A DNA stretch of 64,000 nucleotides from Sporichthya brevicatena (lineage in GTDB: Bacteria; Actinomycetota; Actinomycetes; Sporichthyales; Sporichthyaceae): positions 1 to 64,000 of the forward strand of contig NZ_BAAAHE010000036.1 in NCBI RefSeq assembly GCF_039525035.1. Direction: 5' to 3'. The position numbers and the translations under genes are program-made. Below the pieces are notes generated by a model, which was given only the letters and a program-made list of their open reading frames with translations, made no database searches and was not told where the DNA came from. This document shows, piece after piece, positions 42,753-64,000 of the stretch; within the stretch, counting starts at the first letter, position 1, and every line of letters starts with the position of its first letter.

Positions 42753-43547
42753 TCAGGCCACGCGGGCGACGAAGGTCGCGACCTCGTCGAGCACCTCGTT
42801 CTTGTTGGTCTCGTTGAAGACCTCGTGCGCGGCGCCCGGGTACGAACGGGCGAGGAGGTCGTTGCCGGCGACCTTCTCGACGAGGACCTTCGCCGACGGG
42901 TAGTCGGCGAGCTGGTCGGCCTCGCCGTGCACCCACAGCACCGGGAGCGAGAGCACCGGGCCGGCGGCGACGGCCTCGACGGCGGCGAACATGCCGACGA
43001 ACGACTCCTTGATCAGCGGACCGTGGTAGACCAGCGGGTCCGCCGCGTAGGCCTCGCCCACGGCGGGGTCGCGCGAGAGCGCGGCCGGGTCGATGGGGAT
43101 GTCCGGCAGGACCTCCATGTCGAGCAGCGGCGCCATCGCCGGGTTGCCGAGGAACGGGCCGGAGACGACGAGCCCGGTCAGCGCCGAGCCGTACCGCTGG
43201 GCGTAGCGCAGCGACATCAGCCCGCCCATCGAGTGGCCGATGAGCACCAGCGGCAGGCCGGGGTTCTCCTCGGCGGCGCGCGCCACGACCAGGTTCAGGT
43301 CGTCCGCCATCGCCTCCACGTCGTCCACGACCGCCCGCGGGCCGTCGGACCGGCCGTGGCCCCGGTGGTCCGGCGCGTACACGACGGCCCCGTCGGCGAC
43401 CAGGCGGTCGATGACGTGCGCGTACCGGCCGGAGTGCTCACCGAAGCCGTGCGCGATCACGACGACGCGCTGTGCCGTGGCCGGCGTCGCCTTACGGACG
43501 ACGAGCTTGCCCTGGGAGCCGGTGAGCTCGAAGTCGGTGGTGGTCAT
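42753..43547 (-). CDS. Monoacylglycerol-lipase-like alpha/beta hydrolase
   Basis: The 264-residue serine hydrolase has the oxyanion motif HGFGEHSGRY (33-42) and the nucleophile elbow GHSMGG with Ser106. The catalytic His is in YPGAAHEVFNE. HGxxEHSxRY is characteristic of monoacylglycerol lipases and lysophospholipases. ATG 43547 overlaps the stop of the previous hydrolase gene by four bases. It is the last of five coupled genes that make and handle acylglycerols, so release of fatty acids from monoacylglycerol fits. Confidence 0.87.
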   Translation of the reverse strand: MTTTDFELTGSQGKLVVRKATPATAQRVVVIAHGFGEHSGRYAHVIDRLVADGAVVYAPDHRGHGRSDGPRAVVDDVEAMADDLNLVVARAAEENPGLPLVLIGHSMGGLMSLRYAQRYGSALTGLVVSGPFLGNPAMAPLLDMEVLPDIPIDPAALSRDPAVGEAYAADPLVYHGPLIKESFVGMFAAVEAVAAGPVLSLPVLWVHGEADQLADYPSAKVLVEKVAGNDLLARSYPGAAHEVFNETNKNEVLDEVATFVARVA

Positions 43548-44395
43548 TCGGCGGGTTCCTCCGTCGCACGTCGGGTGGTTGGTGGGGTCGTGGGGTGGTC
43601 GACGCGGTCGGTGAACTCCAGGATCGTGCGCGTCACCAACGCGGGGTCGTCGTACATGGGGACGTGCCCGATGCCGGGCATCGTGAGGAACTCGGCGCCG
43701 GGAAGGATCTCCCGCCACGGCGCGCCGTAGCGCTTGTACGGGATCGTGCGGTCGCGCTCGGCCCACACGATGCGGACGGGGCAGTCGGCCGCGATCGCGA
43801 GCTCGCGGGTCGGGCCGGTCTGCCGAAGCGAGGCGAGCAGGCCGTCGAGCATCGTGCAGGCCTGCAGGTCCTCGTTCATGCCGGCGAGGTCCTCAGCCGG
43901 GATGAGGTCGCCGCGCAGCATCGCGGAGCGCAGCAGCACCTTCCGGGTACGCGGCTTCGCCATCAGTCGGGCGACGGACTTCCGATGCGCGGTCGCCTTC
44001 GCCACCTTGAGCAGCGTCCCGATCCGGCGCAGGTCGCGCTCGGAGGTGTACGTGCCCGCCGGCGAGAACGCGACGACGGACCGGCCGCGGCCGCGGGCCG
44101 CCATCTCCAGCGCGAGCCAGCCACCCAGGGAGTTGCCGACCAGATGGGCGCGGGAGATCCCCGCCTTGTCCATCCGGTTCTCCATGTCGTCCGCGATGAC
44201 GCGGATGCCGTTGGGGCCGGCCGCGAGCTCCGGGCCGCCCCGGTGGCCGATCAGCGTCGGGACGAACAGCGCATGCCGCTGCTCGAGCGTCGGGATCACC
44301 GGGCGCCAGATGCGCCAGGACCCGTTGATGCCGTGGAAGAGCACCATCGGGGTCCCGGTGCCGCCCACGTAGGCATCGGTCAACGGCTCGCTCAT
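43544..44395 (-). CDS. Alpha/beta hydrolase
   Basis: The 283-residue hydrolase has HGING (21-25) and the nucleophile elbow GNSLGG (Ser89). The acid Asp lies in WAERDRTIP and the His in GIGHVPMYDDP. The fold suits an esterase or lipase. It starts 10 bases after the WS/DGAT stop and overlaps the next gene by four bases. Its place in a storage-lipid operon suggests turnover of wax esters or acylglycerols, but the substrate is not shown. Confidence 0.85.
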   Translation of the reverse strand: MSEPLTDAYVGGTGTPMVLFHGINGSWRIWRPVIPTLEQRHALFVPTLIGHRGGPELAAGPNGIRVIADDMENRMDKAGISRAHLVGNSLGGWLALEMAARGRGRSVVAFSPAGTYTSERDLRRIGTLLKVAKATAHRKSVARLMAKPRTRKVLLRSAMLRGDLIPAEDLAGMNEDLQACTMLDGLLASLRQTGPTRELAIAADCPVRIVWAERDRTIPYKRYGAPWREILPGAEFLTMPGIGHVPMYDDPALVTRTILEFTDRVDHPTTPPTTRRATEEPAE

Positions 44396-44405
44396 CGCCG
44401 CCCTC

Positions 44406-45842
44406 CTAGCGCGCCAGCACCGGCGGCGGGTTGTCGCCGCCGACCCGCAGCACCTCGTCGAACCCGCCCACGAGCGAGTGCACGAAGGTCTCCGGGTCGG
44501 TGAACGACGCCGCGTCGTAGTTGACGCCGACGCACGCGACCGGGCCGTGCGTCGCGAGGGTGATCATCGCGGGACACCCCGGCAGCGGGGCGTACCCGTA
44601 CAACCGTTCCACGCGCACCCCGGCGAGGTGGACCTCGACCCGGGGACCGGGGACGTTGCTCGCCTGGAGGTCGTTCGCCCTCGTCATGCCGCCCGCGATC
44701 TGGGCGATGACGCCCGCGGGGAGCCGGGCGATCGCCGGGGCGATCACGCTGAGGTTGTTCATCGCCGGCTCAGCGCGGGCGCGGCGCACCTGATCCCCGA
44801 TCTCGAGCATCCGCTTCGCGGGGTCGACGATCTCCATCGGTCCGGCGAGGCGGGCGCTGGCGATCTCGTTGCCGCCGTTCGCGGCCTCCGCGGGACGCAG
44901 CGACATCGGGATGGCGATCGGCACCGGCTGCGGGGGCACCCCCATCGCCTCGTGGTAGAGCCGGTACCCGCCGAGCAGGGCGGCGAGGTAGGCGTCGTTG
45001 ATCGAGGCGCCGACGGTCTTCGCGGCCGCGCGCAGCGCGGCGAAGTCGACGTCCAGCGCGGCGAAGCGCCAGTTGGTGCTCCGCTCCGCCAGCAGCGGGG
45101 ACGGTTCCGCCGCGGGGGGCGAGAGCACCCGCTTGAGCGAGGAGGTGTAACGCGCCGAGGCGCGGACCGACTCCGGCGGGTTCGACAGCGCCCGCAGCGC
45201 GGTGCCGCCGGCCTTCCGCAGGACGTCCGGCGTCCCGAGCACGCCCTCGACCGCGTGGGCGCGCAGGGCGTCGAGGGGCGTCATCACTTTGCTCGGACGG
45301 GGCGTCAGTTCCGGGCCGGGCGGGGTCTCCAGCCCGGCCGGCGGATTCAGGTACGTCAGCAGCTTCATGATCCCGAGACCGTCGGAGATCGAGTGATGCA
45401 GCTTCAGGACGTACGCCGACTTGCCGTCCGGCATGCCCTCGTAGAGCACGGCCTCCCACGGCGGGCGCGCCCGGTCGAAGCCGCGCATCGCCGCCTTCTC
45501 CGCGGCAGCGAGCAGGCCCGCCCAGCCCGCGTCGTCGGGCAGACGCGTCCGGCGCAGGTGGTAGTGCAGGTCGAAGTTCGGGTCCTCGGCCCACCGCGGC
45601 GGCGCCAGCCCCATCGGCGGGGAGACGACGCGGTGCCGCAGGCGCGGGATCAGCCGGGTCAGGCGGTGGTGCGTCTCGACGACAGCGTTCCAGTTCGGCG
45701 TGCCGTCGAGCAGCTCGATGCCGACGCAGGTCGACCGAACCGGGGAGGCGTCCTCGACCCGCCACATGAGCGCCTCGAAGGCGTTCATCACGTCGCTGCC
45801 GCCGCCCCACTCGGCGCTCGCCATGGGGGTCTCGGTGGTCAC
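44406..45842 (-). CDS. Wax ester synthase/diacylglycerol acyltransferase (WS/DGAT)
   Basis: The 478-residue enzyme has the catalytic HHSISDG (149-155), matching HHxxxDG. The conserved SNVPGP segment comes near the C-terminus. It joins acyl-CoA to a fatty alcohol or to diacylglycerol at the membrane or lipid-droplet surface. The GTG at 45842 overlaps the upstream stop by four bases. It takes the diacylglycerol that PlsB and PlsC-type steps would supply, so triacylglycerol storage is the likely role, with wax esters possible. Confidence 0.92.
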   Translation of the reverse strand: MTTETPMASAEWGGGSDVMNAFEALMWRVEDASPVRSTCVGIELLDGTPNWNAVVETHHRLTRLIPRLRHRVVSPPMGLAPPRWAEDPNFDLHYHLRRTRLPDDAGWAGLLAAAEKAAMRGFDRARPPWEAVLYEGMPDGKSAYVLKLHHSISDGLGIMKLLTYLNPPAGLETPPGPELTPRPSKVMTPLDALRAHAVEGVLGTPDVLRKAGGTALRALSNPPESVRASARYTSSLKRVLSPPAAEPSPLLAERSTNWRFAALDVDFAALRAAAKTVGASINDAYLAALLGGYRLYHEAMGVPPQPVPIAIPMSLRPAEAANGGNEIASARLAGPMEIVDPAKRMLEIGDQVRRARAEPAMNNLSVIAPAIARLPAGVIAQIAGGMTRANDLQASNVPGPRVEVHLAGVRVERLYGYAPLPGCPAMITLATHGPVACVGVNYDAASFTDPETFVHSLVGGFDEVLRVGGDNPPPVLAR

Positions 45843-47323
45843 GGCGTCGCCTTTCCGGCGCCGTCGGTCACCGACTCGGGAGCGGAGGGCCGGCCCGGCC
45901 AGTGCGCGAGCGTGTGCAGCCAGTCGTTGCGGATCGCCTCGGCGTGCGCGCTGACGTCCTCGGCCTTCCAGTCGGTGGTCTCGACCGGCGGGAGCACGAC
46001 GACCTCGATGACACCGGACCGCACGGTCTGAGAACCCCGCCACATGACCTCGTTCTGACCCTTCATCACCATCGAGACGATGGGGACGCCGGCCTGCATG
46101 GCCATGTGGAACGCGCCCTTCTTGAAGGGCCCGAGGCGCGGGGTGGGCGAGCGCGTGCCCTCCGGGGAGAGCACGATCGACAGGCCGTTGCGGAGCTTCT
46201 CGACCGCCGGCGCCAGCGCGGCCTTGGGGTCTTTGACGTTGCCACGGTCGATGAAGGCGACGTCGGCGATCTGGAACAGCTGGCCGAAGCCGGGGATGTT
46301 CTTCGCCTCCTTCTTCGCCACGCCCGTGTAGCTCTGGCGCACCAGCTTCATCGCGACGACCGCGTCGATGTTGCTCTGGTGGTTGAAGATGAACACCGCG
46401 GGCCGGCGCGACCACAGGTGCTCGGCGCCGGAGATGACCTTCACCTCGACCCCGGCGAGCGCGAAGCCGAGGTCGGTGCCGATCGTCGAGGTGATGTCGA
46501 CGATCTGCCCGCGGCTGCGGTTGAGCAGGCCCGCGCCCAGGCCGGCCACGAACGCTCCGGCGAAGGCGCCGTAGAACGCGCCGGTGCGGGCGAGATCGAC
46601 GACGCCCGGGCGCTTCCCGCGCGGCACGCAGTCCAGCACGGGCCAACCGCGCCGCTCCGCCTCCTCGCGCAGACCCTTGTCGGGCGCGACCGCGGTGGGG
46701 TGCGCGACCGTGGACAGGAACGGGACGTCCTCGTCGCCGTTGCTGTAGGCGAACGAGCGCGTCAGGTCAATGCCCTTGGCGCGGGCGAGATCGACGACGG
46801 CGTTGGCTTTCTGACTCCCCCACAGCGGCGTGCCGCCGGTGCGGCCGGTGAGGACGCCGTCGATCGCCTCGAGCGGGGTGCACAGCACGTGGTCGGCCCC
46901 GATCGCCTCGGCCATCGGCTCGACCTGGAACCGCGTCGCCGACGACGCCAGCACGATGGTGTGCTCCATCGCGCGGTGGGCCTCGACCAGCTCCCAGATC
47001 TCCGTGTGCAGCTTGCCGGCGATCTCGGAGACGAAGAGCTTCTGACCGAGCTTGGTCATGTCCTCCTCGGTCTTGCCGCTCCAGGCACCGAGGGAGAGCT
47101 CGAGGAGCGCGGCGAAGTCCTCCTCCGTGTGGATTCCCCGCACGGCGGTCCACAGCGTCCTGGCCAGTTCCTGGGGACCGATGTCGAGGTCCTTGAAGCG
47201 CTGGTTGTAGAAGGTCGTCGCGGAGTAGCCCGTGATCAGCGTGCCGTCGTAGTCGAAGAAGGCGCCGATCTCCGGCCCGCGGGGCGAGGAGAAGACGTCC
47301 GCCAGCAGCTTGTCCAGAGTCAT
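45839..47323 (-). CDS. HAD-IB phosphatase fused to 1-acylglycerol-3-phosphate acyltransferase
   Basis: A 494-residue fusion. Residues 20-225 are an HAD-IB hydrolase with the nucleophile motif FDYDGT (23-28) and GDEDVPFL in the place of motif IV. Residues 290-470 are a PlsC-type acyltransferase with NHQSNID near 315 and EGTRS near 386. A hydrophobic stretch between them (about 250-275) may anchor it. It could acylate lysophosphatidate and dephosphorylate a lipid intermediate, covering two steps from glycerol-3-phosphate to diacylglycerol. The phosphatase substrate is inferred. It overlaps both neighbours by four bases. Confidence 0.88.
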   Translation of the reverse strand: MTLDKLLADVFSSPRGPEIGAFFDYDGTLITGYSATTFYNQRFKDLDIGPQELARTLWTAVRGIHTEEDFAALLELSLGAWSGKTEEDMTKLGQKLFVSEIAGKLHTEIWELVEAHRAMEHTIVLASSATRFQVEPMAEAIGADHVLCTPLEAIDGVLTGRTGGTPLWGSQKANAVVDLARAKGIDLTRSFAYSNGDEDVPFLSTVAHPTAVAPDKGLREEAERRGWPVLDCVPRGKRPGVVDLARTGAFYGAFAGAFVAGLGAGLLNRSRGQIVDITSTIGTDLGFALAGVEVKVISGAEHLWSRRPAVFIFNHQSNIDAVVAMKLVRQSYTGVAKKEAKNIPGFGQLFQIADVAFIDRGNVKDPKAALAPAVEKLRNGLSIVLSPEGTRSPTPRLGPFKKGAFHMAMQAGVPIVSMVMKGQNEVMWRGSQTVRSGVIEVVVLPPVETTDWKAEDVSAHAEAIRNDWLHTLAHWPGRPSAPESVTDGAGKATP

Positions 47324-49599
47324 CCCAGCACCTCTTCGAGCAGGTCAGCCTCGAGCCGGTCGATCCGGCCGAGCCGTTCGAGCACGTCGGTCACCTCGGC
47401 GAGGTAGTGATGCCGGGCGGCCTGCACCGCTTCGGCCTCGACGGTGCCCGGGGCCGCCGTCTCCAGCAACCCGCGGTGCCGGGCCAGACGCAGCGCCGTC
47501 GAGTACAGCTCCCGCGACACGGAGTCCGCGCGGTGCAGGCGCCCGCGCAGCAGCATCTGCTGCCCGAGACCGAGGCACTCCTCCAGGAACGGACCGGTCA
47601 CGACCTCCGCGGCCGGGTCCCGTTCGGCGAGCGCGGTCGCGACGACGAGCTGCGCGTCGAAGAACGAGCGCAGCGCCCGGTGCGCGACCAGCAGCCGCGA
47701 GGAGGACAGGATCTTGGCGCCGCCGTCGGGCCCGTCCTGGTTCTCCCAGTTCGGGTCGAGCAGCTGGAGCTCCTTCACCACGTCGGAGCGGAACTGCTCG
47801 CTCGGCGGGAAGAAGAACTCGAACTTGAGGAGGTCGCGCATCCGCTGCGCCTCCGCCCACGACTCGGCGATCGAGGACTCGCACACCGGCTTGGCGGACA
47901 CCTCGAGCAGGGCGAGTTCGACGATCGCGCGCGTGACCAGGTGGTGCAGGGCGCCGTTGCGGTAGAACGCGGCGACCCGGTGCTGCCCGGCCTGGATCGA
48001 CCACACCGGCTCGGGGCCACCGGTGAACACCGTCGCGACGCCGACGGCGACCAGGTGGTCGAGGGCGGCGCGGAGCCCGGCCTCCTCGCGGAGCGAGTGC
48101 GGCGAGGCGGAGTCGTTGTCGGTCCGCGGGATGCCGCGGGCGTCGAGGTAGTCGAGCAGCGGGGCCAGGACGCGACCGACCTCGGCGAGGGTGAGAGCCC
48201 GGTCGTGACTGCCGAGCAGCGTGAACGTCAGCAACGCCGACGAGGTCACCGGCGTCGCGCGGTTGATGCCGTCGCAGATGCGGAACGCGACCTTGTCCAG
48301 CTGCGCGGGACCCTCCCCCGCCTCGTCGAGCGCCTGCCGGAGCGAGAAGGGCTCCCCGAAGCGGATCCAGGCGTTGCCGCTCATCCGCTGCTGCCCGCGG
48401 ACGTAGCGCGCGAGCCACCGGGTGCTCTCGGCCGCCTTCGCAGCGCCGCCCTGCTCGGCGTCCAGCGCGCGCACCTCGGCCATGTGGTCGTAGACGATCG
48501 AGACCGGGACCATCGCGACGTCCTCGGTCCGCTCGTCCTGGAGCGCGCGGACCAGGTACGCGAGCAGGCCCATCTTCGGCGGCCGCAGCTTGCCGGTCCG
48601 GGTCCGGCCACCCTCGATGTACCACTCGAGGTTGAACTTCTTGGCCGTCAGATATCCGAGGTACTCGCGCAGGGCGAACTTGTAGATCGCGTCGCCGGCG
48701 GCGTCGGTGTCCGCCCGGCGGATGAAGATGACGCCCGCCCGCTTGCCGAGCGGCCCGATCGGCCAGAACGACATGTTGTTGCCGCCGAGCAGGTGGTTGC
48801 GCGGGAAGTCCTTCTCGTGGAGGACCTCGGCGAGCACCAGCGGGTCGACGTACGAGCGGTGCGCGGGCAGGAAGACCAGCGCCTGCTCCTTGTTGAGCGC
48901 GCGCAGGCGCTCCAGGTTCGAGGTGTCGACCTGCACCTTCCACGCCCGCGAGTGCATGGGCGACAGGACGGTGCGGAACGCGTCGATCGCAGCCGGGCTC
49001 TGCACGGTGACGAGCTCGTTCAGGCACTCGCGGGCCTCGGCGAGCACCTCGGCCTCGGGTCGGCTGAGCTGCTGTGCGAGCTCGGCGGCCTTGGCGCGGA
49101 AGCGGGAGGACGCGGTGATCTGCTCGACCACCTGGCGCGGGACCTTGTAACGGTCACCGATCAGGCGGCGCTCCGCCCGGTCGACGGCCACCGTGGCGAC
49201 CCGGCTCACGAAGGTCGCGAACGACGACGCGTTGCCGGTCTCCTCGGCGAACCGGGCACGCAGGTCCCCGACCGTGGCCGGCTCGCCGCGGACGACGCCG
49301 GCCCGGCCCGGGGAGTTGCGCACCAGGACCTTCTGCAGCGGGCCCGGTGGGCGCCGCGGCGAGAGGTGGGCCAGCAGCTCGGAGGGCCGGCGCGAGGAGG
49401 ACGAGGTCGAGACCCAGGTGACCCGGACCGGCACCAGGAGGGTGTCGTCGGACAGGTCGTCGAAGCTGGCCTCGGAGTCGAGGTCGCGGATCGGGGCCCC
49501 GCGGTGGTTCGCGGCGACCCACTCGCGGATCAGCTGTTGTTCGGTCCGTGTGCGCCCCTGCGCCAGTACGACGACGGGTACATCCGGAGGGACGCTCAC
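47320..49599 (-). CDS. plsB: Glycerol-3-phosphate 1-O-acyltransferase
   Basis: The 759-residue protein matches the large PlsB family: an N-terminal region of about 220 residues, then the acyltransferase block with AHRSYVDPLVL near 244-254, GGRTRTGK and MVPVSIVYDH. It starts phospholipid and triacylglycerol synthesis by acylating glycerol-3-phosphate at the membrane. The GTG start has AGGAG upstream and the stop overlaps the next ATG by four bases. It is the first gene of the coupled storage-lipid unit. Confidence 0.9.
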   Translation of the reverse strand: MSVPPDVPVVVLAQGRTRTEQQLIREWVAANHRGAPIRDLDSEASFDDLSDDTLLVPVRVTWVSTSSSSRRPSELLAHLSPRRPPGPLQKVLVRNSPGRAGVVRGEPATVGDLRARFAEETGNASSFATFVSRVATVAVDRAERRLIGDRYKVPRQVVEQITASSRFRAKAAELAQQLSRPEAEVLAEARECLNELVTVQSPAAIDAFRTVLSPMHSRAWKVQVDTSNLERLRALNKEQALVFLPAHRSYVDPLVLAEVLHEKDFPRNHLLGGNNMSFWPIGPLGKRAGVIFIRRADTDAAGDAIYKFALREYLGYLTAKKFNLEWYIEGGRTRTGKLRPPKMGLLAYLVRALQDERTEDVAMVPVSIVYDHMAEVRALDAEQGGAAKAAESTRWLARYVRGQQRMSGNAWIRFGEPFSLRQALDEAGEGPAQLDKVAFRICDGINRATPVTSSALLTFTLLGSHDRALTLAEVGRVLAPLLDYLDARGIPRTDNDSASPHSLREEAGLRAALDHLVAVGVATVFTGGPEPVWSIQAGQHRVAAFYRNGALHHLVTRAIVELALLEVSAKPVCESSIAESWAEAQRMRDLLKFEFFFPPSEQFRSDVVKELQLLDPNWENQDGPDGGAKILSSSRLLVAHRALRSFFDAQLVVATALAERDPAAEVVTGPFLEECLGLGQQMLLRGRLHRADSVSRELYSTALRLARHRGLLETAAPGTVEAEAVQAARHHYLAEVTDVLERLGRIDRLEADLLEEVLG

Positions 49600-53080: not shown

Positions 53081-53999
53081 CGGCGGCCTGGAGTGCGGTG
53101 ACGCAGGCGAGGTCGACGATCTCGTCGGCGTTCGCGCCGCGCGACAGGTCGTTCATCGGGAGCGCGAGGCCCTGCAGCACCGGGCCGACCGCGACCGCCC
53201 CGCCGAGGCGGGCGACGAGCTTGTAGGCGATGTTCGCGGCGTCGAGGTCCGGGAAGACCAGGACGTTCGCGGCACCGGCGACAGGGCTGCCGGGCGCCTT
53301 CGCCGCGGCCACAGTTGCGTCGAGCGCGGCGTCCGCCTGAAGTTCACCATCGACCGCGAGGTCGGGGTGCTGCTCCTGGACGAGCTTGAGGGCCGCCCGG
53401 ACCTTGTCGACCCGCGGGTGCTGGGCGCTGCCCTTGGTCGAGAAGCTGAGCAGCGCCACCCGGGCGGTCTCGCCCAGCAGCGCCTGCGCGCTGCCCGACG
53501 ACGCCACGGCGATGTCCGCGAGCTGTTCGACGGTCGGGTCGGGCACCACTCCCCCGTCGGCGAAGACGACCGTCCGCGGACCGCCCGCGGCGTGCGGGCA
53601 GTCCATGAGGAAGAAGCTGGAGACCGTCGACACCCCGGCCGCCGGACCGATGCCGCGGAGCGCGGCACGGACGGTCGCGGCCGTCGTCGCCACCGCGCCG
53701 GCCACGGCCCCGTCGGCGAGCCCCGCGCGGACCATCAGCGCACCGACGAGAAGCGGGTCGTCGAGTTCGGCGGCCGCGTCCTCGGCGGAGACGCCCCGGG
53801 CGGCGCGCCGCTCGACATGACCCGGCGTCAGGTCGGGTCGGACCTGCTCCCGCAGTTCGGCGGTCAGCAACACCGGCGTGCCGAGGCCGTCCCCGAAGGT
53901 TCCGGCGGCGGCCCGGACGCGCGGATCGTCCGCCTCGCAGAAGACGATCCGGGCGGGCCGGGCCGCGGCGCCGGCCCGCAGCCGTTCCGAGAGCGTCAC
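53061..53999 (-). CDS. pta: Phosphate acetyltransferase (short form)
   Basis: The 312-residue enzyme is a short phosphotransacetylase lacking the N-terminal regulatory domains of enterobacterial Pta. Landmarks are [34 protein letters not shown], the [12 protein letters not shown] segment and [12 protein letters not shown]. It interconverts acetyl-CoA (or another short acyl-CoA) and acyl phosphate. No acetate kinase gene follows. The GTG start overlaps the stop of the AtuA-family gene by four bases, so the two are coupled. A propionyl or branched acyl substrate is possible. Confidence 0.88.
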
Positions 54000-55813
54000 G
54001 CGGCGGTGGCCACCAGGGCGGCCGGGACGGTGACCTCCATCGCGAGCAGGTACTGGGCGAAAGTCTTGCCCTGGGCGTCGAAGCGCAGCGAGTTCGCGCC
54101 ACCGCCGCCGAGACTTTCGTGCAGCAGGAAGTTCAGGGCGAGCAGGTTGGGCAGTTCGAAGCGCTCGACCTCGCCGTTGCAGATGCCCTTGAACTGCTGC
54201 TTGACGACCTCGGAGGTGAGGTTCGCCTTGATCCAGTGGTAGATCTCCGGGCTCCGGGCGCGGATGCCGACGTTGCCGGTGTCGCCCTTGTCGCCGGAGC
54301 GGGCGATGCACAGCTGCATCAGCGGAACGGTGACGGTCTGCGAATCTCCGGGCAGGTCGGCGAGCTCGCGGGCGTCGTCGGCCGGGGTGGCCTTGCCCAG
54401 CGGCGCGGGCGCGACGCGGACATCGGTGTAGGCCGCGGCGGCCGAGGAGACCGGTTCGGTGTTGCCGTCGACGGTGACGGTGGCCTTGACCGCGTCGCGG
54501 GCGATCAGCGCGGGCCAGTGGGCCACGACCTCGGCCACGCGCGGGCGGCCCTGGTCGGCCGGCACCGTCATGCCGGGCAGGGCCTGAAGCATGATGCCGA
54601 CCACCATCGGGGCGAAGTTCGCCTCGATCTTGGCCCGGTCCCGGTCGCGGACCCCGAACTGGACCAGCACCTCGCTGGGCTCGGTGGCGGTCAGCGAGGG
54701 GTGGGAGGCGTCCCAGCCGATGAACTGCGTCGAGGCCTCTTCGTAGGCGTCCATCCCGCCGGCCGCGTGCCAGAAGATCTCCGCGACCTTGTTGGCCTTA
54801 CGCAGCGTGTCCGGGCCCGAGAGCAGCAGCCGCCCGACCGAGCGGTACCCGTCGGAGTAGGAGACGGCGACCTTGAGCAGCTCGGGCGGCGGCGCGCCGA
54901 CGATGCCGGAGACGCGGACGCGGTCCGGGCCCTCCTGGGCCAGCTCGATCGAGTCGAAGCGCGCGATGCAGTCCGGGGACAGGTAGGCCGGGCCGCCCAT
55001 CTCATACAGCAACTGCTCGGAGACCGTGTGGACGCTGACCAGGCCCCCGGTGCCCGGGTGCTTGGTGACGACGAACTCCCCGTCCGGGTACACCTCGACC
55101 AACGGGTAGCCCATGTTGCGGTGGTCCGGGACCAGGTGCCAGTCGGTGAAGTTCCCGCCCGTGCACTGGCAGCCACACTCGATGATGTGCCCCGCCACCA
55201 CCCCGGCCGCGAGCTTGTCCCAGTCGTCGGCCGCCCACCCGAAGCGGTGGATCATCGGCGCCATCGCCACCGAGGTGTCGGTGACCCGCCCGGCCACGAT
55301 CACGTTCGCGCCCAGCTCCAGGGCCCGCACGATCGCCGGTGCCCCGATGTAGACGTTCGCCGACTGCACCCGCTCGCGGATGTCGCTGAGCGGACGGCCG
55401 GTCTCCATGTTCGTCAGCGCCTGACCCGAGGCGAGCAGATCGTCCAGGTCCGTGTACAGGTCGTCCCCGGACACCACACCGAGCTTGACCTTGTCCCGGA
55501 CCCCGAGCTCGGTCGCGAGCTTCTCCACCGCCGCCGCACACGCATGCGGGTTCACCCCGCCGGCGTTCGCGATGATCGTGACGCCCTTCTCCACACACGG
55601 CACCAGCACGTCCCGCAGCTGGGTCAGAAAGTCCCCCGCGTACCCCAGCTCAGGGCGCTTGGCCTTCTGCTTCTGCAGGATCGCCATCGTCACCTCGGCC
55701 AGGTAGTCCATGACCAGGTAGTCGATCGGCCCACCCTCGACCTGCCGCTTCGCCGCCGTGGGGTCATCCCCCCAGAACCCGCCGCAGTTGGCGATGACGA
55801 TCTTCTCGGTCAC
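53996..55813 (-). CDS. AtuA-family protein (DUF1446 with C-terminal AtuA-like domain)
   Basis: The 605-residue protein has the DUF1446 core (about 1-450), with [18 protein letters not shown] and the [12 protein letters not shown] block, and the smaller AtuA-like C-terminal domain (about 495-595; [18 protein letters not shown]). AtuA belongs to the acyclic terpene (citronellol/geraniol) utilisation gene set of Pseudomonas, though its reaction is not settled. GTG is preceded by GGAGG. Here it is coupled to a phosphate acetyltransferase, an unusual partner. A TTAAC dyad lies 33 bases upstream. Confidence 0.85.
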
Positions 55814-55950: not shown

Positions 55951-56835
55951 TCAGACGACGGTGGCGGCGATCCGCTCCGTGCGGCTCATCGGCGAGAGCG
56001 ACGGGGCCCGGCCCTCGAGCTCCGCGAGCCGCTGGACCGCGAACAGCGCCTGGCTGGTCCAGTACAGGCCGGCCGCGGCCAGGCCGATGCTCACCGGAGC
56101 CATGGCCCACATGATCGCCGTCGAGGGGTTCGGCGCGTTCATCGCGACCAGCGTCGGGAAGCCCGCACCGAGGCACTCGAACGCGAAGTTCGCCGGGAAC
56201 ACCATGAACACGATCAGGTTGTGCTGCCACTTGGTGGCGCGCAGCTTGATCACCGCGCACAGCACCGCGAAGCCGGTGATCTGCGCGCACTCCATGAACG
56301 CGATGAACAACGGGTAGTTGAGGAACCGCATCGGCGCCTCCCCGTAGTAGGTGTACAGGCCCGAGTTCACCGCGATGGTCTCGAACAGCGCCGTCGTGAA
56401 GGCGGTCAACGCGGCGTAGGAGTAGATCTTCTTCAGCGTCACTCCGGCCGCGAAGGCGCGGTAGAGGAGCACCGCCGGCAACGCGAACACGACCACGTAG
56501 GCCGGCATGACCCAGACCGGTTGCGGCAGTCCGAACGAGGTGAAGAGCGTCCACTGGGGGCCGTTGCCCTCGGCGTCTGCTCCGAGCCAGTGCAGGTGGT
56601 AGGTGATGTCGTAGATGGGCTCGAAGATGCTGCCGGCGGCGACGGCCAGGACGATGAACACGGGGAGCGGCGAGCGCTCCTGGCGGCCGATCCTGGCGGC
56701 GTAGACGAGCAGAGCGATCGTGCCCGCCCACAGGCCGACGGTGGCGACGGTCTGCATGACCTCGTTGAGGTCACGGCCGTACGTCTCCGGCGTGGGCAGC
56801 GGGACGGGTCCCGCGTCACCCTGAAGTCGATTCAT
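55951..56835 (-). CDS. Multi-pass membrane protein, possibly AveC-like
   Basis: The 294-residue protein has about seven or eight hydrophobic helices (near 30-50, 58-75, 105-130, 138-160, 175-195, 205-225 and 235-255). Conserved-looking polar residues sit near helix ends (EPIYDITYHLHWLG, SGLYTYYGEAPMRF). The pattern reminds me of the AveC family, which in Streptomyces acts as a membrane dehydratase/spirocyclase in avermectin synthesis. This match is from memory and moderate. ATG is preceded by AAGGA. It lies 116 bases after the transporter-linked secreted protein gene and may take part in import or first transformation of the substrate. Confidence 0.55.
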   Translation of the reverse strand: MNRLQGDAGPVPLPTPETYGRDLNEVMQTVATVGLWAGTIALLVYAARIGRQERSPLPVFIVLAVAAGSIFEPIYDITYHLHWLGADAEGNGPQWTLFTSFGLPQPVWVMPAYVVVFALPAVLLYRAFAAGVTLKKIYSYAALTAFTTALFETIAVNSGLYTYYGEAPMRFLNYPLFIAFMECAQITGFAVLCAVIKLRATKWQHNLIVFMVFPANFAFECLGAGFPTLVAMNAPNPSTAIMWAMAPVSIGLAAAGLYWTSQALFAVQRLAELEGRAPSLSPMSRTERIAATVV

Positions 56836-56899
56836 CAGGAGTCCTTCGGGTCAGCGTTGAGCTTCCGGAGGTCGGGCTGGGGAACCGGGGACGAACGGC

Positions 56900-56936
56900 C
56901 GAGGTCCGCCGCCCCCGACCGGGACGACGGACCTCG
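56900..56936. terminator. Intercistronic hairpin
   Basis: CGAGGTCCG and CGGACCTCG form a 9-bp perfect stem with a 19-base loop in the 116-base gap, possibly a weak terminator or mRNA-stabilising fold. Confidence 0.4.
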
Positions 56937-56951
56937 GGAACCAGAGCGCCG

Positions 56952-58316
56952 TCAGACGCCGCGGTTCATCGCGAACCGACCGAACAGGAGGTGCCCGCCC
57001 AGCACCGCCATGCCACCCAGGAGGAGCAGCCCGTAGAGCAGCTCCGTGTCGGTGCCGCGCTGAGCGGCGGCAGGAACGAACCCGAGTGAGGTCGGGAGGA
57101 TCTCCCCGGAGACGAGCGGGCCGGCCACGTCGGCGACGCCCTCGGGCAGCGGGCTCAGGCCCGTGTCCGTACCGGGCAGGGCACCGACGGCGCCGGTGCC
57201 GAGATCGACCGCCGGGGCACCAGCGGCGTCCACGGTTGCACCCGTGTCGGCGCCGCTGATGCCGCCGGCGGTCGTGGAGTCGGTGCTCGCCCCCGAGTTG
57301 GCCGACCCCGATCCGACGCTGTCCGACTTCGCGAAGTCGATGGCGTCGTTGAGCGCGCTGACCGAAGCGCGGCCCAGGATGAACGTGACCGTCAGCGGCT
57401 CCGCCCCGGGAACCGCCTGCGTCGTCGTGACCTTGAGACCACCAATGGTGTAGGTCATCGCCCCGGTGGCGGCGTCGGTGGCCGTCTCGATCGGCGCGAC
57501 GTCGAGCTGGATCCCGGCGTTCTTCAGGACCTCGTTCGCCTGGGCGATCGCGTCCTTGGAGCTGGCCTCCTGGCCCAGGTAGCGGAACCCGTTCTGGTTG
57601 AAGCCGAAGTCCTGGCCGTTCACCGAGAACCGACCGAAGGTCTGCGAGGTGATCGTCGGGGCCTTGCCGGGCGTGGTGCTGTCGACGATCTTCGCCTGCG
57701 CCACGGAGTACCCGACCTCGAGCGGACCCTGCACGAAGCCGGCGACCGTGCCCGAGGCCTCGGCAACCGCGTTGTCCTTCACGACGGAGACGACAGCGTC
57801 CGCGGTCTCCTGCTGGTTCGGCGCCGGGATCTCCGGCGGCGCGCCCTGCTCGCCGTGCGCCTTGACCGTCGTCTCGCCACAGTCCACGGTCGTGCGGTAC
57901 CAGCCGCCGTCGTCGGCGGCCTTGTCCGGCGAGCGGCACTCGATGTAGCCAGGAACTCGGGTGAAGGGCACCGGAAGGGCGAACCCGAAACCCGACGGTA
58001 GACCCGCCGCCGTGCCAGGTAGATTCTGCCCCGTAGTCCCGAGGTAGGGCGAACTGGCGAACGCTTCGCCAAGGCCGTTAGCCAATTCGGCATGAGCAAC
58101 GAGCGAGGACGCCTCGACCTCGGGGGAAGCGGGCACGCTGGCCGAGATGACCTCATAATATTGCGCGTCGCCCTGGGCGGTCAGCGAGTACGTCGTGTTC
58201 ATGTCCGCAGGAATCAAAGGGTCAGCGCTGGCCGACCCGACGGGTAACGTGATGAGTGCCCCCGTGCTGGCGGTCGCGACCGCGGTGAGGGCGAGAGCCC
58301 AGTGCGGCGCCCTCAT
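56952..58316 (-). CDS. Secreted, C-terminally membrane-anchored protein coupled to ABC genes
   Basis: The 454-residue protein has a signal peptide (likely cut after ASA near 31), a large strand-rich extracellular part, and a Gly/Ala/Ser/Asp-rich stretch (about 330-420). It ends in a membrane helix (about 427-446) and a short basic tail (RFAMNRGV). This is a surface protein held by its C-terminus; there is no LPXTG. I recognise no catalytic domain. Two Cys (about 128 and 146) could form a disulfide. Its ATG overlaps the LivF stop by four bases, so its dose is tied to the transporter and it may be a surface receptor or substrate-gathering protein. Confidence 0.7.
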   Translation of the reverse strand: MRAPHWALALTAVATASTGALITLPVGSASADPLIPADMNTTYSLTAQGDAQYYEVISASVPASPEVEASSLVAHAELANGLGEAFASSPYLGTTGQNLPGTAAGLPSGFGFALPVPFTRVPGYIECRSPDKAADDGGWYRTTVDCGETTVKAHGEQGAPPEIPAPNQQETADAVVSVVKDNAVAEASGTVAGFVQGPLEVGYSVAQAKIVDSTTPGKAPTITSQTFGRFSVNGQDFGFNQNGFRYLGQEASSKDAIAQANEVLKNAGIQLDVAPIETATDAATGAMTYTIGGLKVTTTQAVPGAEPLTVTFILGRASVSALNDAIDFAKSDSVGSGSANSGASTDSTTAGGISGADTGATVDAAGAPAVDLGTGAVGALPGTDTGLSPLPEGVADVAGPLVSGEILPTSLGFVPAAAQRGTDTELLYGLLLLGGMAVLGGHLLFGRFAMNRGV

Positions 58317-59011
58317 GACGCCAACGACCCGAGGTAGCTGTTCATGATCGTTTCCTCCGAGATCTCGCCGGGCTCTCCGGCAAAACTGATACGGCCGCGG
58401 TCGAGGATGTAGACGTAGTCGGCCAGCTGCAGGGCTTGACCGACGTACTGCTCGACGAGCAGCTGCGAGATGTTCGACTTCGACAGGTCGTGGAGGTAGG
58501 CGAAGATCTCCTCCACGATCTTGGGTGCGAGGCCCATCGACACCTCGTCCAGCAGCACCACGCGAGGGTTGCCGACGTAGGCGTACGAGAGCGCGAGCAT
58601 CTGCTGCTCGCCACCACTCATCGTCCGCGCCACCTGGTTGGCCCGCTCACCGAGACGCGGGAAGACCGACGTGGCCTTCTTCAGGGACGCCTTGAAGTTG
58701 CCGGGCGGGGCCTGCAGCCGGATGTTGTCCGTGACCGTGAGCGAGGGGAAGATCCCGCGACCCTCGGGCACGTGGCACACCCCACGCTTGGCCAGCTGAT
58801 GCGGCTTCAGATTCGTCACGTCCTCGCCGTCGATCAGGATCTGTCCCGACCGCGGCTTCAGCAGCCCTGAGGCGACGCGCAGCAGCGTGGTCTTTCCGGC
58901 CCCGTTCGGGCCGAGCAGGGCCACGACCGCGTTGTCCGGCACGGTGATGCTGACGTCGCGCAGGACGGTGCCGGTGTCGTAGCCGGCCGTGATGTTCCGT
59001 AGCTCAAGCAA
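58313..59011 (-). CDS. ABC transporter ATP-binding protein, LivF type
   Basis: The 232-residue ATPase has Walker A GPNGAGKT (34-41), the signature MSGGEQQML and Walker B VVLLDE followed by the LivF-like VSMGLAPKIVEEIF. It powers import by a branched-chain-amino-acid-type (HAAT) ABC system with the LivG protein. Its start overlaps the LivG gene end by 8 bases. The substrate need not be an amino acid: this family also takes up amides, urea and aromatic or lipid-like acids. Confidence 0.9.
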   Translation of the reverse strand: MLELRNITAGYDTGTVLRDVSITVPDNAVVALLGPNGAGKTTLLRVASGLLKPRSGQILIDGEDVTNLKPHQLAKRGVCHVPEGRGIFPSLTVTDNIRLQAPPGNFKASLKKATSVFPRLGERANQVARTMSGGEQQMLALSYAYVGNPRVVLLDEVSMGLAPKIVEEIFAYLHDLSKSNISQLLVEQYVGQALQLADYVYILDRGRISFAGEPGEISEETIMNSYLGSLAS

Positions 59012-59771
59012 CGCTGGCCTCCCCCAGGTAAGCAGCGCGCACGAGCTCGCTGTGCAGGGCCTGTTGTGTGGTGCCCTCGTAGATGATCTTTCCGAAGTCG
59101 AGGACGTAGATCCGCTCGCAGATCTCGGCGACGAGCGGCATGTCGTGCTCGACGATGAGGATCCCGGTGCCGGTGTCCGCCACGAAGTCCGTCAGGACCT
59201 TCCCGAACACGTGCGTCTCGGAGACGTCCAGACCGGACGACGGCTCGTCGAGCAGGAGGAACTTGAACGGTGTCGCGATGGCCCGGGCCAGTTCGACGAG
59301 CCGGCGATGACCGGTCGACAGGTCACCGACCGTCTTGTTGGCCAGGTGCGTGATGCCGCAGCGCTCCATCGCCTCGTTCGCTCGCCGGTTGACCTCCGCC
59401 GCCTCCTTGCGGGTGGCGTAGATCTGACCGAGGAGCCGGAAGCTCGAGAAGTGCGCGGACGGACCGGTCCGCACGTTCTCGGCCACCGAGAGGCTCTCGA
59501 ACAGCTCCATCCGCTGGAACGTGCGACCCAGGCCGTGGTGCGCCCGGTTCGACGTGCGGTGGCCGTCCAGCCGGTGATCCCCGAGCTGCACGGTGCCCGA
59601 GGTCGGGCGGTTGCGGCCGGTGCACGCGTTGAAGAAGGTCGTCTTGCCGGCGCCGTTGGGCCCGATCAGCCCGGTGATGGTGCCGCCCTTCGCGTACACG
59701 GTCGCGTCGTTGACCGCGGTGATGCCACCGAACTTCACGGTGACGTTGCGGACGTCGAGATCGACGCTCAC
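59004..59771 (-). CDS. ABC transporter ATP-binding protein, LivG type
   Basis: The 255-residue ATPase has Walker A GPNGAGKT (37-44), a signature spelled LSTGHRR (the usual LivG form is LSYGQQR, from memory) and Walker B FLLLDEPSSGLD. The fold around TSNRAHHGLGRTFQRMELFESLSVAENV matches LivG. The changed signature motif is still compatible with ATP binding because the Ser-x-Gly core is kept. Start and stop overlap both neighbours. It forms the second ATPase of this importer. Confidence 0.9.
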   Translation of the reverse strand: MSVDLDVRNVTVKFGGITAVNDATVYAKGGTITGLIGPNGAGKTTFFNACTGRNRPTSGTVQLGDHRLDGHRTSNRAHHGLGRTFQRMELFESLSVAENVRTGPSAHFSSFRLLGQIYATRKEAAEVNRRANEAMERCGITHLANKTVGDLSTGHRRLVELARAIATPFKFLLLDEPSSGLDVSETHVFGKVLTDFVADTGTGILIVEHDMPLVAEICERIYVLDFGKIIYEGTTQQALHSELVRAAYLGEASVA

Positions 59772-61780
59772 TGCTCGCCTCCTCTTCCGCCGGTCCCGCT
59801 GCCGACCAGCTCCCGGGAGTCCGGACGCTCGACGGACGTGCGGAGCTGCACCGGCCGCACCGGGGTGGACGCCACGCGCTCACGGTTCGGGCTCCGGACA
59901 TCGCGCTCGGCGCCGAAGCGTCCGAGTCGCGCCACCCGGCCGGGAACGTCGAGCGCGGGCCAGATCGCCACCAGCACCGCGAGCGCACCGAAGATCACGC
60001 CCTGGTACTTGATGAAGGTCTCGGTGTTGAACGGCGGGTAGATCTTGATCAGCTGGAACAGGATCGCCGCGATCAGCGGGGAGGCGATCGGACGCCGACC
60101 GGCGAACCCGAGCACCGCCACCATGACGAGCGAGACCGTGATGTTGAACGGACCCGTGAGGGCACCACTCGCGCTGCCCGGGACGCCGGCGATCAGGACG
60201 CCGCCGACGGCCGCCATGGCCGAGGCCATGCAGAACACCACGACCCGCATGAGGTTCGTGTTCGCGCCGTGGGCGTCGAGCGCCACCGGCGAGTCGGACA
60301 TCGCACGGAGCAGGCTGCCCAGACGGCTCCGGCGGACCAGCAGGACCGCCGCGCCCATCAGGACCGCGACTATGAGGCAGAGGTAGTAGTAGCCCCGACT
60401 GGTAGTGAAGTCGATCCCGAGGATCACCGGGCGCGGGACCGCGATCTGCTGCACGTCACCGAACATGAACGGCGTCCCGTAGAACACCTGCTGCATGACG
60501 ATGCCGAAGCCGAACGTCGCGACCGCGACGTAGATGCCGGCGAGGCGGATGGCCGGGATGGCCACGATCGCACCGGCCGGGATGGCGACGAGCGCACCGA
60601 TGAGCACCGCGAGCGTCCACGGCACCCCGCGACCGAGCATGTGCCCGGCGGTGCCGGCACCGATCGCTGCGAAGGCCATTTGGCAGAGCGAGATCTGGCC
60701 CGACATCCAGACGAGCATCCCGAGCGAGGCGAAGACCACGAAGTAGCCCAGCATCGAGGCGTACTGCGTGATGTCCGTCGTCGGGACCACGAACGGGATC
60801 GCGACCAGGACCGCGAGGAGGGCGCCGAAGCCACCCCGCGTGACCGGCGGGCTGTACGTGCGGATCGGCTTCAGGCGGCGCGCGTTGCGAACTCCACGCT
60901 CCGTCAGTTTTCGCGCCGGCACGATCAGGAAGACGATGAACAACACCAGGAACGGCAGGTTCGCCGGGAGGAGCTGGATGGTCAGGTCGTCCGACCACTT
61001 GGTGGTCTGGGACGGCAGGTAGGCCACCAGGATGCCGATACCCATGGCGCCGACGACCGTCAGCGGAAGGCTCTCGAACCGCCCGACCGCCGCGGCACCG
61101 TAGGCCGCGATGACCAGGAGGATCAGCGTGTTGACCGACACACCGAGGCGCGGGGCGAGGAAGACACCCGAGACCGAGGCGAAGCAGCAGCCGACGATCC
61201 AGCTCAGGCGCCGCACGGTGGCCGGGTTGATCGCCTGCAGGCTGAGCAGGTTCGGGTCGTCGACGACCGCGGTCGTCGCCTTGCCGAGGCGGGTCTTCTC
61301 GAAGAAGAACCAGAGCGCAGCCGCCGCACCGAGGGAGAAGATCACGATCGCGACGTCCTCGACGGTCACCTGGAAGGTGTCGATCGTGAACAACGTGTCG
61401 CGGGGCAGATAGGGCTCCATGAAGATGTTCGCCGAACCGTAGACCGCCGTGCACAAAGACTGCAGGAGCACCAGGAGTCCGACGGTGGCGACCACCACCA
61501 TCACGGTGGGCGCGGTCGAGAGCAGCGACGCCAGTCGTTCGACGAGGAGACCGCCGATCACGCCGACGAGGAGCACGGACAGGGCGAAGGCCGGGGCCCA
61601 GTGCATGCCCTGCTTCATGTGCAGGTCGTAGAAGACGTACGCCGCAGCGGCCGCGATACCGCCGTGGGCAAAGTTGAAGATGCCCGAGGTCTTGTAGGTC
61701 AGGACCAGCCCGAGCGCGACCAGGGCGTAGATCGATCCGGCGCTGATGCCGGACGGGAGGAAGGTGATGAACTCTCTCAT
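59768..61780 (-). CDS. Fused LivH-LivM-type ABC permease
   Basis: The 670-residue protein joins both membrane subunits of a HAAT importer. Residues 1-290 resemble LivH (SAGSIYALVALGLVLTYKTSGIFNFAHG at the start) and residues 320-630 resemble LivM (FASLGMLVWMSGQISLCQMAF, then the GIYVAVATFGFG segment). A charged linker separates them and a basic, Arg-rich cytoplasmic tail of about 40 residues follows. The ATG overlaps the preceding stop by four bases. A single-chain permease fixes a 1:1 ratio of the halves. Confidence 0.9.
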   Translation of the reverse strand: MREFITFLPSGISAGSIYALVALGLVLTYKTSGIFNFAHGGIAAAAAYVFYDLHMKQGMHWAPAFALSVLLVGVIGGLLVERLASLLSTAPTVMVVVATVGLLVLLQSLCTAVYGSANIFMEPYLPRDTLFTIDTFQVTVEDVAIVIFSLGAAAALWFFFEKTRLGKATTAVVDDPNLLSLQAINPATVRRLSWIVGCCFASVSGVFLAPRLGVSVNTLILLVIAAYGAAAVGRFESLPLTVVGAMGIGILVAYLPSQTTKWSDDLTIQLLPANLPFLVLFIVFLIVPARKLTERGVRNARRLKPIRTYSPPVTRGGFGALLAVLVAIPFVVPTTDITQYASMLGYFVVFASLGMLVWMSGQISLCQMAFAAIGAGTAGHMLGRGVPWTLAVLIGALVAIPAGAIVAIPAIRLAGIYVAVATFGFGIVMQQVFYGTPFMFGDVQQIAVPRPVILGIDFTTSRGYYYLCLIVAVLMGAAVLLVRRSRLGSLLRAMSDSPVALDAHGANTNLMRVVVFCMASAMAAVGGVLIAGVPGSASGALTGPFNITVSLVMVAVLGFAGRRPIASPLIAAILFQLIKIYPPFNTETFIKYQGVIFGALAVLVAIWPALDVPGRVARLGRFGAERDVRSPNRERVASTPVRPVQLRTSVERPDSRELVGSGTGGRGGEQ

Positions 61781-62250
61781 GGGAGGCACACTCCGCAGGG
61801 GGTTCGACCGGCCCGCTCGTGCTCCGCGCGGGAGCGAGCGGTCCAATCACGGTCGGCGGCGAGAGCGCAACTCTCGCGGTGGTAGTGACGCAGGTCGTCC
61901 GCCCCGACGAGCGCAGGCTCGGTGGCCGGCGTGACGTCGAGCGACGCACGCCCCACGGGCACCAACTCGGGGACAGGGCCCAGCACGGCGACCCGTCGCA
62001 TCGACACCGCGCGCCGGCCCGCGATCAGCAGGGCGACCCCCGCTGCGTTGGCGAGGACCGTGCCGAGGACGGCGAGGCTGATGCCGGGGACCTGGTCGTC
62101 GTACACGACCTCGCTACTCACACGCGAGGAACCCACGACGAACAGGACGAGCCCGACGCCCACCACGGCGGACGCGAGGCCGACCATCTGGGGCGTCCAC
62201 GGCGCCAACGTCGACGAGGAGCGGCCCCGCGTTCGGCTACGCGTGCTCAC
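61777..62250 (-). CDS. Small membrane protein with predicted zinc-binding tail
   Basis: With the GTG at 62250 this is 157 residues. Two membrane helices lie at about 20-41 and 55-77. The C-terminal tail has HxxxC, then about 25 residues and AGRTPCGVCLP. This His, Cys, CxxC spacing ending in PCxxC resembles the small Ada-type or phage-like zinc-binding module with the pattern YHxxxC...AGYRPCKVC. Such tails bind zinc and sometimes DNA or protein. The start is set by frame and by a 14-base overlap with the previous gene. Location inside an ABC operon is unusual and no function is known. Confidence 0.6.
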   Translation of the reverse strand: MSTRSRTRGRSSSTLAPWTPQMVGLASAVVGVGLVLFVVGSSRVSSEVVYDDQVPGISLAVLGTVLANAAGVALLIAGRRAVSMRRVAVLGPVPELVPVGRASLDVTPATEPALVGADDLRHYHRESCALAADRDWTARSRAEHERAGRTPCGVCLP

Positions 62251-62635
62251 GGGAGGACACCGCGTTGGCGAGAGCAGGCTGCGTCGTGGCGGCCGAACCG
62301 TTGACCGCGCGGCTCTGGGACCGCTGGGCGACGTTGGCAGCGGAGGAGTCCGTGCCGTCGCTCCACCGGAGCACGCCGTCACCGAGGGCCTGCTCGATGC
62401 GGTCGAGCTTGCGCCACTCGTCCCGCAGGTCCGCGGAGATCCACAGGGTGGCCCCGAGACCGAGCATGAACAGACCGGCAATGCCGCCGGACACGATGTA
62501 GCGGGTCTGTTCGGCCAGGACCACGGAGTCGGCGACCCCGATGTAACCCGCGAAGAGCGCGATGACGCCGGCAAGCGTCAGGACGACTGCCGCGGTTCGA
62601 TCCCACTGCTTCTGCATGACATTGATGAGGTTCAT
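62237..62635 (-). CDS. Small two-helix membrane protein in the ABC operon
   Basis: The 132-residue protein (ATG 62635, GGAGTGG upstream) has two hydrophobic helices at about 12-32 and 41-62, then an amphipathic helix (DLRDEWRKLDRIEQAL) and a polar Ser/Ala/Asn-rich tail. I do not recognise it. It lies between the binding protein and the zinc-tail membrane protein, with a 14-base overlap to the latter, so it is made together with the transporter and could be an accessory subunit. Confidence 0.65.
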   Translation of the reverse strand: MNLINVMQKQWDRTAAVVLTLAGVIALFAGYIGVADSVVLAEQTRYIVSGGIAGLFMLGLGATLWISADLRDEWRKLDRIEQALGDGVLRWSDGTDSSAANVAQRSQSRAVNGSAATTQPALANAVSSREHA

Positions 62636-62716
62636 TACCACTCCGGGTCGGGTTGCTCGTCGCGAGCCGTTCTGCGATGGAGGTTCAGAGGGTGACCCTT
62701 CAGCGGGCCCAGTGGT

Positions 62717-62752
62717 GCTGTGCCCGGCAGCGTTCCTGCTGCCGGGCACAGC
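62717..62752 (-). terminator. Hairpin just after the binding-protein stop
   Basis: GCTGTGCCCGGCAG and CTGCCGGGCACAGC form a 14-bp perfect stem with an 8-base loop, starting 6 bases past the stop at 62759. Placed between binding protein and permease genes, it may stop most transcripts so that the binding protein is made in excess. Confidence 0.65.
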
Positions 62753-62758
62753 GGCAAA

Positions 62759-64000
62759 TCACTTGCTCTGCGGGTCGCTCGGGGCGATCACGTCGGTGCA
62801 CTGGAGCTTGGTGTCCACGGAGCCCCAGCCCTTGTTGGCCTTGTCCGAGGTCGCGCCGTACAGGCAGTACGGAACCTTCGGCGTGCCGCCCTTGTTGAAG
62901 GTGAGCGGACCGGAGAGGCCACCGAGCTCGGTGAACTTCTGGCCCTTGAACTCGTAGAGCGCGTCGAGGAACTGCGCCGTGGTCGGGTTCTCCGTGAGCT
63001 TGGTGCTCGCGGCGACCAGCAGAGCGCCCGCCTGCCAGCCGAGGCTGGCCGCGCCACCGGCGTTGTAGCCGGGGCGGAACTTCGCGACGGCCTGCTGGTA
63101 GTACTGCATCGCCGCGTTGCCCGGGAACTGGCCCTTGCCCGCCATCCACGGGAAGTGGTTCATCGGGACGTAGGTGCCGCCGAGGTTCGGGTTCCCGAGG
63201 AACTGAGCCTCGTTACCCACACCGAGCGGGTAGCCCAGCCACTGAGGCTTGTAGCCGACCTTGGCGCAGCTGTTGGCGAACCGGTTCTGCGTCGGAGCGT
63301 CGTTGGTCTGCGCCATGACGGTGACACCGGCGTTGCGCGCCGCGATGCACTGCGGCGTGTAGTCCGGCGAGGTGATGGAGATCTGCACCTGGTAGGCGGC
63401 CTCGACGCCGAACTTCGGTGCCAGTTCCTCGAACGCCCGGTTGATCTGGGTGCAGGCCTGCGGAACCTCGAGGCAGTAGTTGTTACCGACCTTCTTGGCG
63501 CCGAGTTGCTTGGCCTTGTTCAGGTAGCCGTAGGCGATCGACTGCGGCGGCGAGCCCTGCGGGAAGAGCAGGGGCTGCGTGAACCAGGTGTTGTTGGTCA
63601 GGTCGCCACCGATGATCGGGATGCCGGTCTCGTTGACGACCTTGATGATGCCGTCGACGGTGAGGACCTGGATGTTGCCGAGGAAGGCCAGGATCTTGTT
63701 GTTCTGGATCATCTTGCGACCCTCGGTGACCGCGGTGGCCGGGTCGCCCTGGTCGTCGGCGATGAACAGCTTGATCGGGTGGCCATTGAGGCCACCACAG
63801 GCGTTCTGCGACGCCACGAAGATCTGCAGCGCCGGGACGACCGGGCTGAACAGCTCACCGAGGACGCCCGAGAGCGTCGAGACATTGCCGATGTTGATCG
63901 GGGTGCCGGTCGCCGGCTTGCACGCGGCCTTGCCGCCGAAGATCGGCAGGTTGGCCAGCGCCGCGGTGCCCGTTGCCCCGCCGGAGGCGGACCCGCCACC
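62759..64000 (-). CDS. ABC substrate-binding protein, branched-chain type (5' end beyond the window)
   Basis: The frame runs to the window edge, giving 413 residues without the start; the signal region is missing. The visible N-terminus is Gly/Ala/Ser-rich (GGSASGGATGTAA), a linker like that after a lipobox. Then a type I binding fold starts at INIGNVSTLSGVLGE, with IKLFIADDQGDPATAV further on. It differs clearly from the two orphan binding proteins at 18.5 and 29.4 kb. It is the receptor of the LivFG-LivHM system downstream. The ligand is unknown; co-located genes favour a terpenoid or other hydrophobic acid over amino acids. Confidence 0.85.
   Translation of the reverse strand, partial: GGGSASGGATGTAALANLPIFGGKAACKPATGTPINIGNVSTLSGVLGELFSPVVPALQIFVASQNACGGLNGHPIKLFIADDQGDPATAVTEGRKMIQNNKILAFLGNIQVLTVDGIIKVVNETGIPIIGGDLTNNTWFTQPLLFPQGSPPQSIAYGYLNKAKQLGAKKVGNNYCLEVPQACTQINRAFEELAPKFGVEAAYQVQISITSPDYTPQCIAARNAGVTVMAQTNDAPTQNRFANSCAKVGYKPQWLGYPLGVGNEAQFLGNPNLGGTYVPMNHFPWMAGKGQFPGNAAMQYYQQAVAKFRPGYNAGGAASLGWQAGALLVAASTKLTENPTTAQFLDALYEFKGQKFTELGGLSGPLTFNKGGTPKVPYCLYGATSDKANKGWGSVDTKLQCTDVIAPSDPQSK

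Follow-up and report, generated by a model that had tools for sequence, protein, structure and literature searches.

The window, a 64,000-nucleotide stretch of contig NZ_BAAAHE010000036.1 from Sporichthya brevicatena, ends in a minus-strand operon in which, on re-calling, all genes run in one direction. In order of transcription they encode a substrate-binding lipoprotein (S), two small membrane proteins (a and b), a fused LivHM permease, LivG, LivF, a surface protein (C), a multi-pass membrane protein (M), AtuA and a PTA-family protein (Table 1). From b through the permease, LivG and LivF to C, each gene overlaps the start of the next by 4-8 bases. Divergent from the operon, upstream of it, are genes for a TetR regulator, for both the beta and the alpha subunit of an acyl-CoA carboxylase, for a CoA ligase and for an acyl-CoA dehydrogenase. 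Re-calling and Pfam domains recovered every part of the one-direction HAAT-type operon described in the earlier note, the gene coordinates bear out its mostly overlapping ends for the run from b through C, and the AtuA-type catabolism that it placed after the transporter is found downstream.

Table 1. Genes of the transporter operon and its AtuA neighbour, in order of transcription; positions are those of the window.
Feature	Position	Strand	Evidence and remarks
S, substrate-binding lipoprotein, LIV type	62759..64000, cut by window end; full gene from contig 64348	-	Peripla_BP_6 E 5.9e-43
a, small two-helix membrane protein, QWDR and SADLRDEW motifs	62237..62635	-	31 strong paralogues in genome
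b, paralogue of a, hairpin and C-terminal H-C-C-C tail	61777..62250	-	GTG start 62250, alternative start 62187
Fused LivH-LivM permease	59768..61780	-	Two BPD_transp_2 domains; in module clade of tree
LivG-like ATPase	59004..59771	-	ABC_tran E 2.3e-29; best NCBIfam model LivG, below cut-off
LivF/UrtE-like ATPase	58313..59011	-	ABC_tran E 2.2e-29; best NCBIfam models UrtE and LivF, below cut-off
C, surface protein, C-terminal membrane helix	56952..58316	-	33 copies in genome; structure model; without Pfam match
M, multi-pass membrane protein, associated with AtuA, outside module	55951..56835	-	9 paralogues
AtuA-type catabolic protein with AtuA ferredoxin-like domain (neighbour)	53996..55813	-	AtuA E 4e-151

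The core of the operon is that of a HAAT importer, with a Peripla_BP_6 binding protein, the LivH and LivM BPD_transp_2 domains within one 670-residue protein, and two ATPases, a set of parts that it shares with the LivJ/K, LivH, LivM, LivG and LivF systems and with UrtABCDE. Unlike Liv and Urt systems, it has its permease halves fused, it carries C, a and b in addition, and its ATPases miss the NCBIfam equivalog cut-offs for both families. Read on the contig beyond the window end, S has a lipoprotein signal (lipobox) followed by an Asn/Ala/Gly-rich linker, and its AlphaFold model (pLDDT 90.1) adopts a LIV-type fold, with a best Z of 39.2 over 365 residues.

The added proteins have conserved features of their own, and none of the three matched a Pfam or NCBIfam family apart from stray sub-threshold matches (DUF6233 in 7 of 24 b sequences and choice-of-anchor P in 1 of 32 C sequences). 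The motifs of a are conserved, and in both a and b the distribution of charge places the two ends inside the cell; for a, this orientation follows from flanks that are more basic than the loop. Beyond a hairpin like that of a, b extends into a tail in which H124, C128, C152 and C155 are invariant in all 24 sequences of this genome and the H-C-C-C pattern is kept in 38 of 40 sequences from other genomes, a pattern suggestive of a putative metal-binding site of the zinc type. Profile comparison identifies a and b as paralogues (probability 96.8). Since several divergent homologues are single hairpin proteins that bear the H-C-C-C tail, and since a and b are paralogous, the pair probably arose by duplication of a single tailed hairpin protein, with the tail subsequently lost in a. 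Sequence and structural model agree on the architecture of C, in which a signal peptide precedes a beta domain (residues ~42-325), a disordered linker of ~100 residues and the C-terminal helix. The beta domain is modelled with confidence; Foldseek and VIA-align searches returned nothing stronger than barrel-like matches of low similarity (best Z 5.8, TM-scores <0.2), so we claim no fold for C and exclude no family.

To place this operon among its relatives in the genome, permease loci were assigned from BPD_transp_2 coordinates, up to 20 kb around each transporter was taken, genes were called and family profiles were built. The 5.2 Mb genome holds 88 BPD_transp_2 domains, corresponding to 44 HAAT-type transporter loci, itself an unusual expansion. 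C, a and/or b accompany 32 of the 36 fused permeases, all three being present at 26 by called genes, counts that are affected by our home-made codon-usage caller, which missed some small genes; in two of the incomplete loci (L037 and L038) it had passed over a, which the profile then found, and a few module loci are left without a or b. The remaining four fused permeases are larger proteins and have no module, and among the eight split-gene systems a single one is accompanied, by a divergent C/a pair. The module thus accompanies every permease of one clade (32 of 32) vs 1 of the 12 others (Fisher p ~1.6e-9), which excludes chance as the source of the linkage, and each of the genome's 31 strong copies of a adjoins a fused permease. 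A permease tree (n=83) places all 71 module permeases in a single clade (support 0.995), with the genome's 12 other systems outside it. Gene order is mostly C-a-b-permease (18 loci) or a-b-permease-ATPases-C (6 loci, including that of the window), and at most module loci the gene ends overlap or touch, with a median gap of -4 both for C-a and for b-permease.

One HAAT transporter with split genes and a divergent C-like/a-like pair (L026 and L204) is kept in a congener and possibly represents a version of the module that is older or of independent origin. Near-identical module copies lie at the ends of contigs C20 and C8 (L037 and L038), perhaps through recent duplication or as an effect of assembly. 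At L041 (contig C16:97001-112800), five consecutive binding-protein genes follow a single module permease, which suggests that several binding proteins serve one transporter. Within the window, two paralogues of 537 and 534 aa (18538-20151 and 29389-30993) were caught by the binding-protein profile and have no adjoining permease; they may be orphan binding proteins.

The module extends well beyond this genome. A scan of an 84,980-species collection with a alone returned 43 loci, from Sporichthya, Streptomyces, Haloechinothrix and Nocardioides and from metagenome-assembled Actinophytocola, Frankiales, Acidimicrobiia and others. At 33 of the 43, b, the permease and C were all present; where they were not, the contig mostly breaks off within the block, and nearly every contig of sufficient length has it. 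Divergent relatives across the phylum lie beside HAAT genes at 14 of 14 loci. Linkage to the transporter in other genomes, on which the earlier note had made its proposal depend, therefore held among both close and divergent relatives. Copy number is highest near the window's own lineage: genomes of its family have 15-34 copies of a, against 0-6 for the rest of those sampled, and a profile search with C gave 33 copies in this genome, against 25 and 16 for two congeners and 17 and 15 for two sister-genus genomes. One locus (L165) belongs to a metagenome-assembled genome labelled Acidobacteria (SM_70_13), which could be a case of transfer or of a bin that is wrongly labelled or contaminated. The recurrent order, the overlapping ends in many genomes and the restriction to one permease clade make it scarcely credible that the extra genes are passengers with no functional tie to the transporter, a description that fits M; for C, a and b, linkage in this genome, in other genomes and at divergent loci rules it out. 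C, a and b constitute a conserved accessory module attached to an importer of known type.

M had been counted by the earlier note as a fourth extra protein of the transporter; the other three form the module, and M is not tied to transporters elsewhere in the genome. None of its nine paralogues stands beside a HAAT permease here, though a few lie near modules on Sporichthya contigs (L152 and L158), and, one weak match aside, it matched no described family. In the sister species M adjoins AtuA, with two genes between M and C, and we treat M as belonging to the AtuA side. The arrangement of transporter next to AtuA recurs in the sister species and in an Acidimicrobiaceae genome, where an orthologous transporter is likewise followed by AtuA, and the pairing is thus not local to one species. 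The genome has three AtuA copies of ~93 percent identity, on contigs C36, C23 (2777-4585) and C8 (258767-260560), and the copy on C8 sits between two module regions.

The catabolic genes around the modules bear on what the transporters carry. Around the modules, genes for acyl-CoA dehydrogenases, CoA ligases, luciferase-like monooxygenases, P450s and thiolases are numerous, as are those for TetR regulators; the catabolic ones among them would serve to degrade fatty, terpene-like or steroid-like compounds. The genome is generally rich in catabolic genes; at comparison loci around M paralogues, which are not a neutral background, neighbours of these kinds are fewer, with the exception of P450s and SDRs. 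As in Atu clusters, AtuA, a biotin-dependent acyl-CoA carboxylase alpha/beta pair, an acyl-CoA dehydrogenase and a CoA ligase flank the operon of the window, where, unlike in those clusters, a dedicated transporter stands beside AtuA. Candidate substrates of the carboxylase are geranyl-CoA and methylcrotonyl-CoA. Because AtuA, the carboxylase and the ligase adjoin the transporter, its substrate at this locus is probably a branched or isoprenoid acid. Elsewhere in the window (42753-49599), a lipase-like hydrolase, a wax ester synthase/DGAT and acyltransferases, conserved in congeners, are probable storage-lipid genes.

The ligand site of the binding proteins gives a second view of the substrate. 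The best fold matches of the S model place the fatty-acid-named structure 4n03 alongside valine-bound and leucine-bound structures, the valine binders ranking equally high, and S is only 14-18 percent identical to these solved relatives, which leaves residue equivalence uncertain. Ser79 and Thr102 (Liv numbering) are ligand contacts that we take to anchor the amino acid in Liv-type proteins. With the corresponding positions placed through a low-identity alignment with Atu2422, the serine is found in 2 and the threonine in 6 of 35 module binding proteins, which share a different motif, GGD; by this alignment the module proteins, unlike Liv proteins, have mostly lost the anchoring serine. HAAT domains throughout and the valine-bound and leucine-bound matches would suit an importer of amino acids or other small polar compounds, in which the extra proteins only anchor or stabilise the complex and the catabolic neighbours reflect a genome full of such genes. 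We consider this unlikely, as by the alignment the serine is mostly absent and a GGD motif is conserved, the genome carries more than 30 divergent copies, too many for amino acids alone, and the neighbours are acyl-CoA catabolic genes. The earlier note had proposed uptake of a hydrophobic compound, and the catabolic neighbours and the apparent loss of anchoring residues partly favour that reading on genomic grounds.

We therefore weigh most heavily, though as a proposition about evenly poised between right and wrong, that the operon encodes a HAAT importer with three dedicated accessory subunits for hydrophobic, probably carboxylated, carbon sources, which would then be CoA-activated and degraded. 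In such a system, substrate would be captured by the lipid-anchored binding protein on its long flexible linker, while C, tethered by its helix and ~100-residue linker, would stand in the wall space and receive or concentrate poorly soluble substrate or position the binding protein. The fused permease would be flanked by a and b as a pair of paralogous hairpins whose two ends face the cell interior, and the metal-type tail of b, on the ATPase side, may stabilise or regulate the complex. LivG and LivF would drive transport, and the imported acids would be activated to CoA thioesters and degraded.

The metal-type cytosolic tail of b, the divergent TetR gene at the window locus and the frequency of TetR genes beside modules could also be read as signs of signalling, with the binding protein and C sensing an extracellular compound, the tail relaying their state to the ATPases or a regulator, and transport being secondary. 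Nearly all loci have a complete permease and ATPases, and catabolic genes generally often have a TetR gene nearby; we regard a sensing role as improbable. A purpose like that of CamABCD, an ABC transporter that takes up hydrophobic, steroid-derived cholate metabolites in Rhodococcus jostii RHA1 (PMC8399759) and is reported as four genes, ro04888 to ro04885 (PMC6498646), would make the module an exporter or re-importer of lipids or pathway intermediates in place of an importer of primary substrates. The likeness, drawn from the published description of CamABCD, lies in ABC uptake of hydrophobic catabolites. A binding protein with a LIV-type permease points to import, the data do not separate primary substrates from intermediates, and we rate this account as rather improbable.

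Mce systems are multi-part importers of hydrophobic compounds in actinobacteria, and actinobacterial sterol uptake is known mainly through them. No operon protein, C, a and b included, matched an MCE/MlaD domain, and unlike Mce systems the present transporter has a permease and binding protein of another family. The genome carries a single mce operon with six MlaD/MCE proteins (contig C19:2009-7508) alongside its expanded HAAT modules. Knowledge of bile acid transport has been described in a review as very limited (PMC8399759), and we found no published description of such a module in the literature searched, which covered few subscription journals.

With ~30 copies in a single genome, the clade-specific, conserved three-protein accessory module offers a concrete candidate that can be tested. 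As a broader proposal, plausible to us yet somewhat more doubtful than not, the module may define a phylum-wide subclass of HAAT transporters that form a larger complex, with the hairpin pair of a and b providing a cytosolic metal site and C a tethered beta-domain receptor, and that would offer actinobacteria, next to Mce, another general means of taking up hydrophobic carbon sources. Such systems are likely annotated only as branched-chain amino acid transporters and hypothetical proteins, and the substrate range of many genomes may for that reason be misread.
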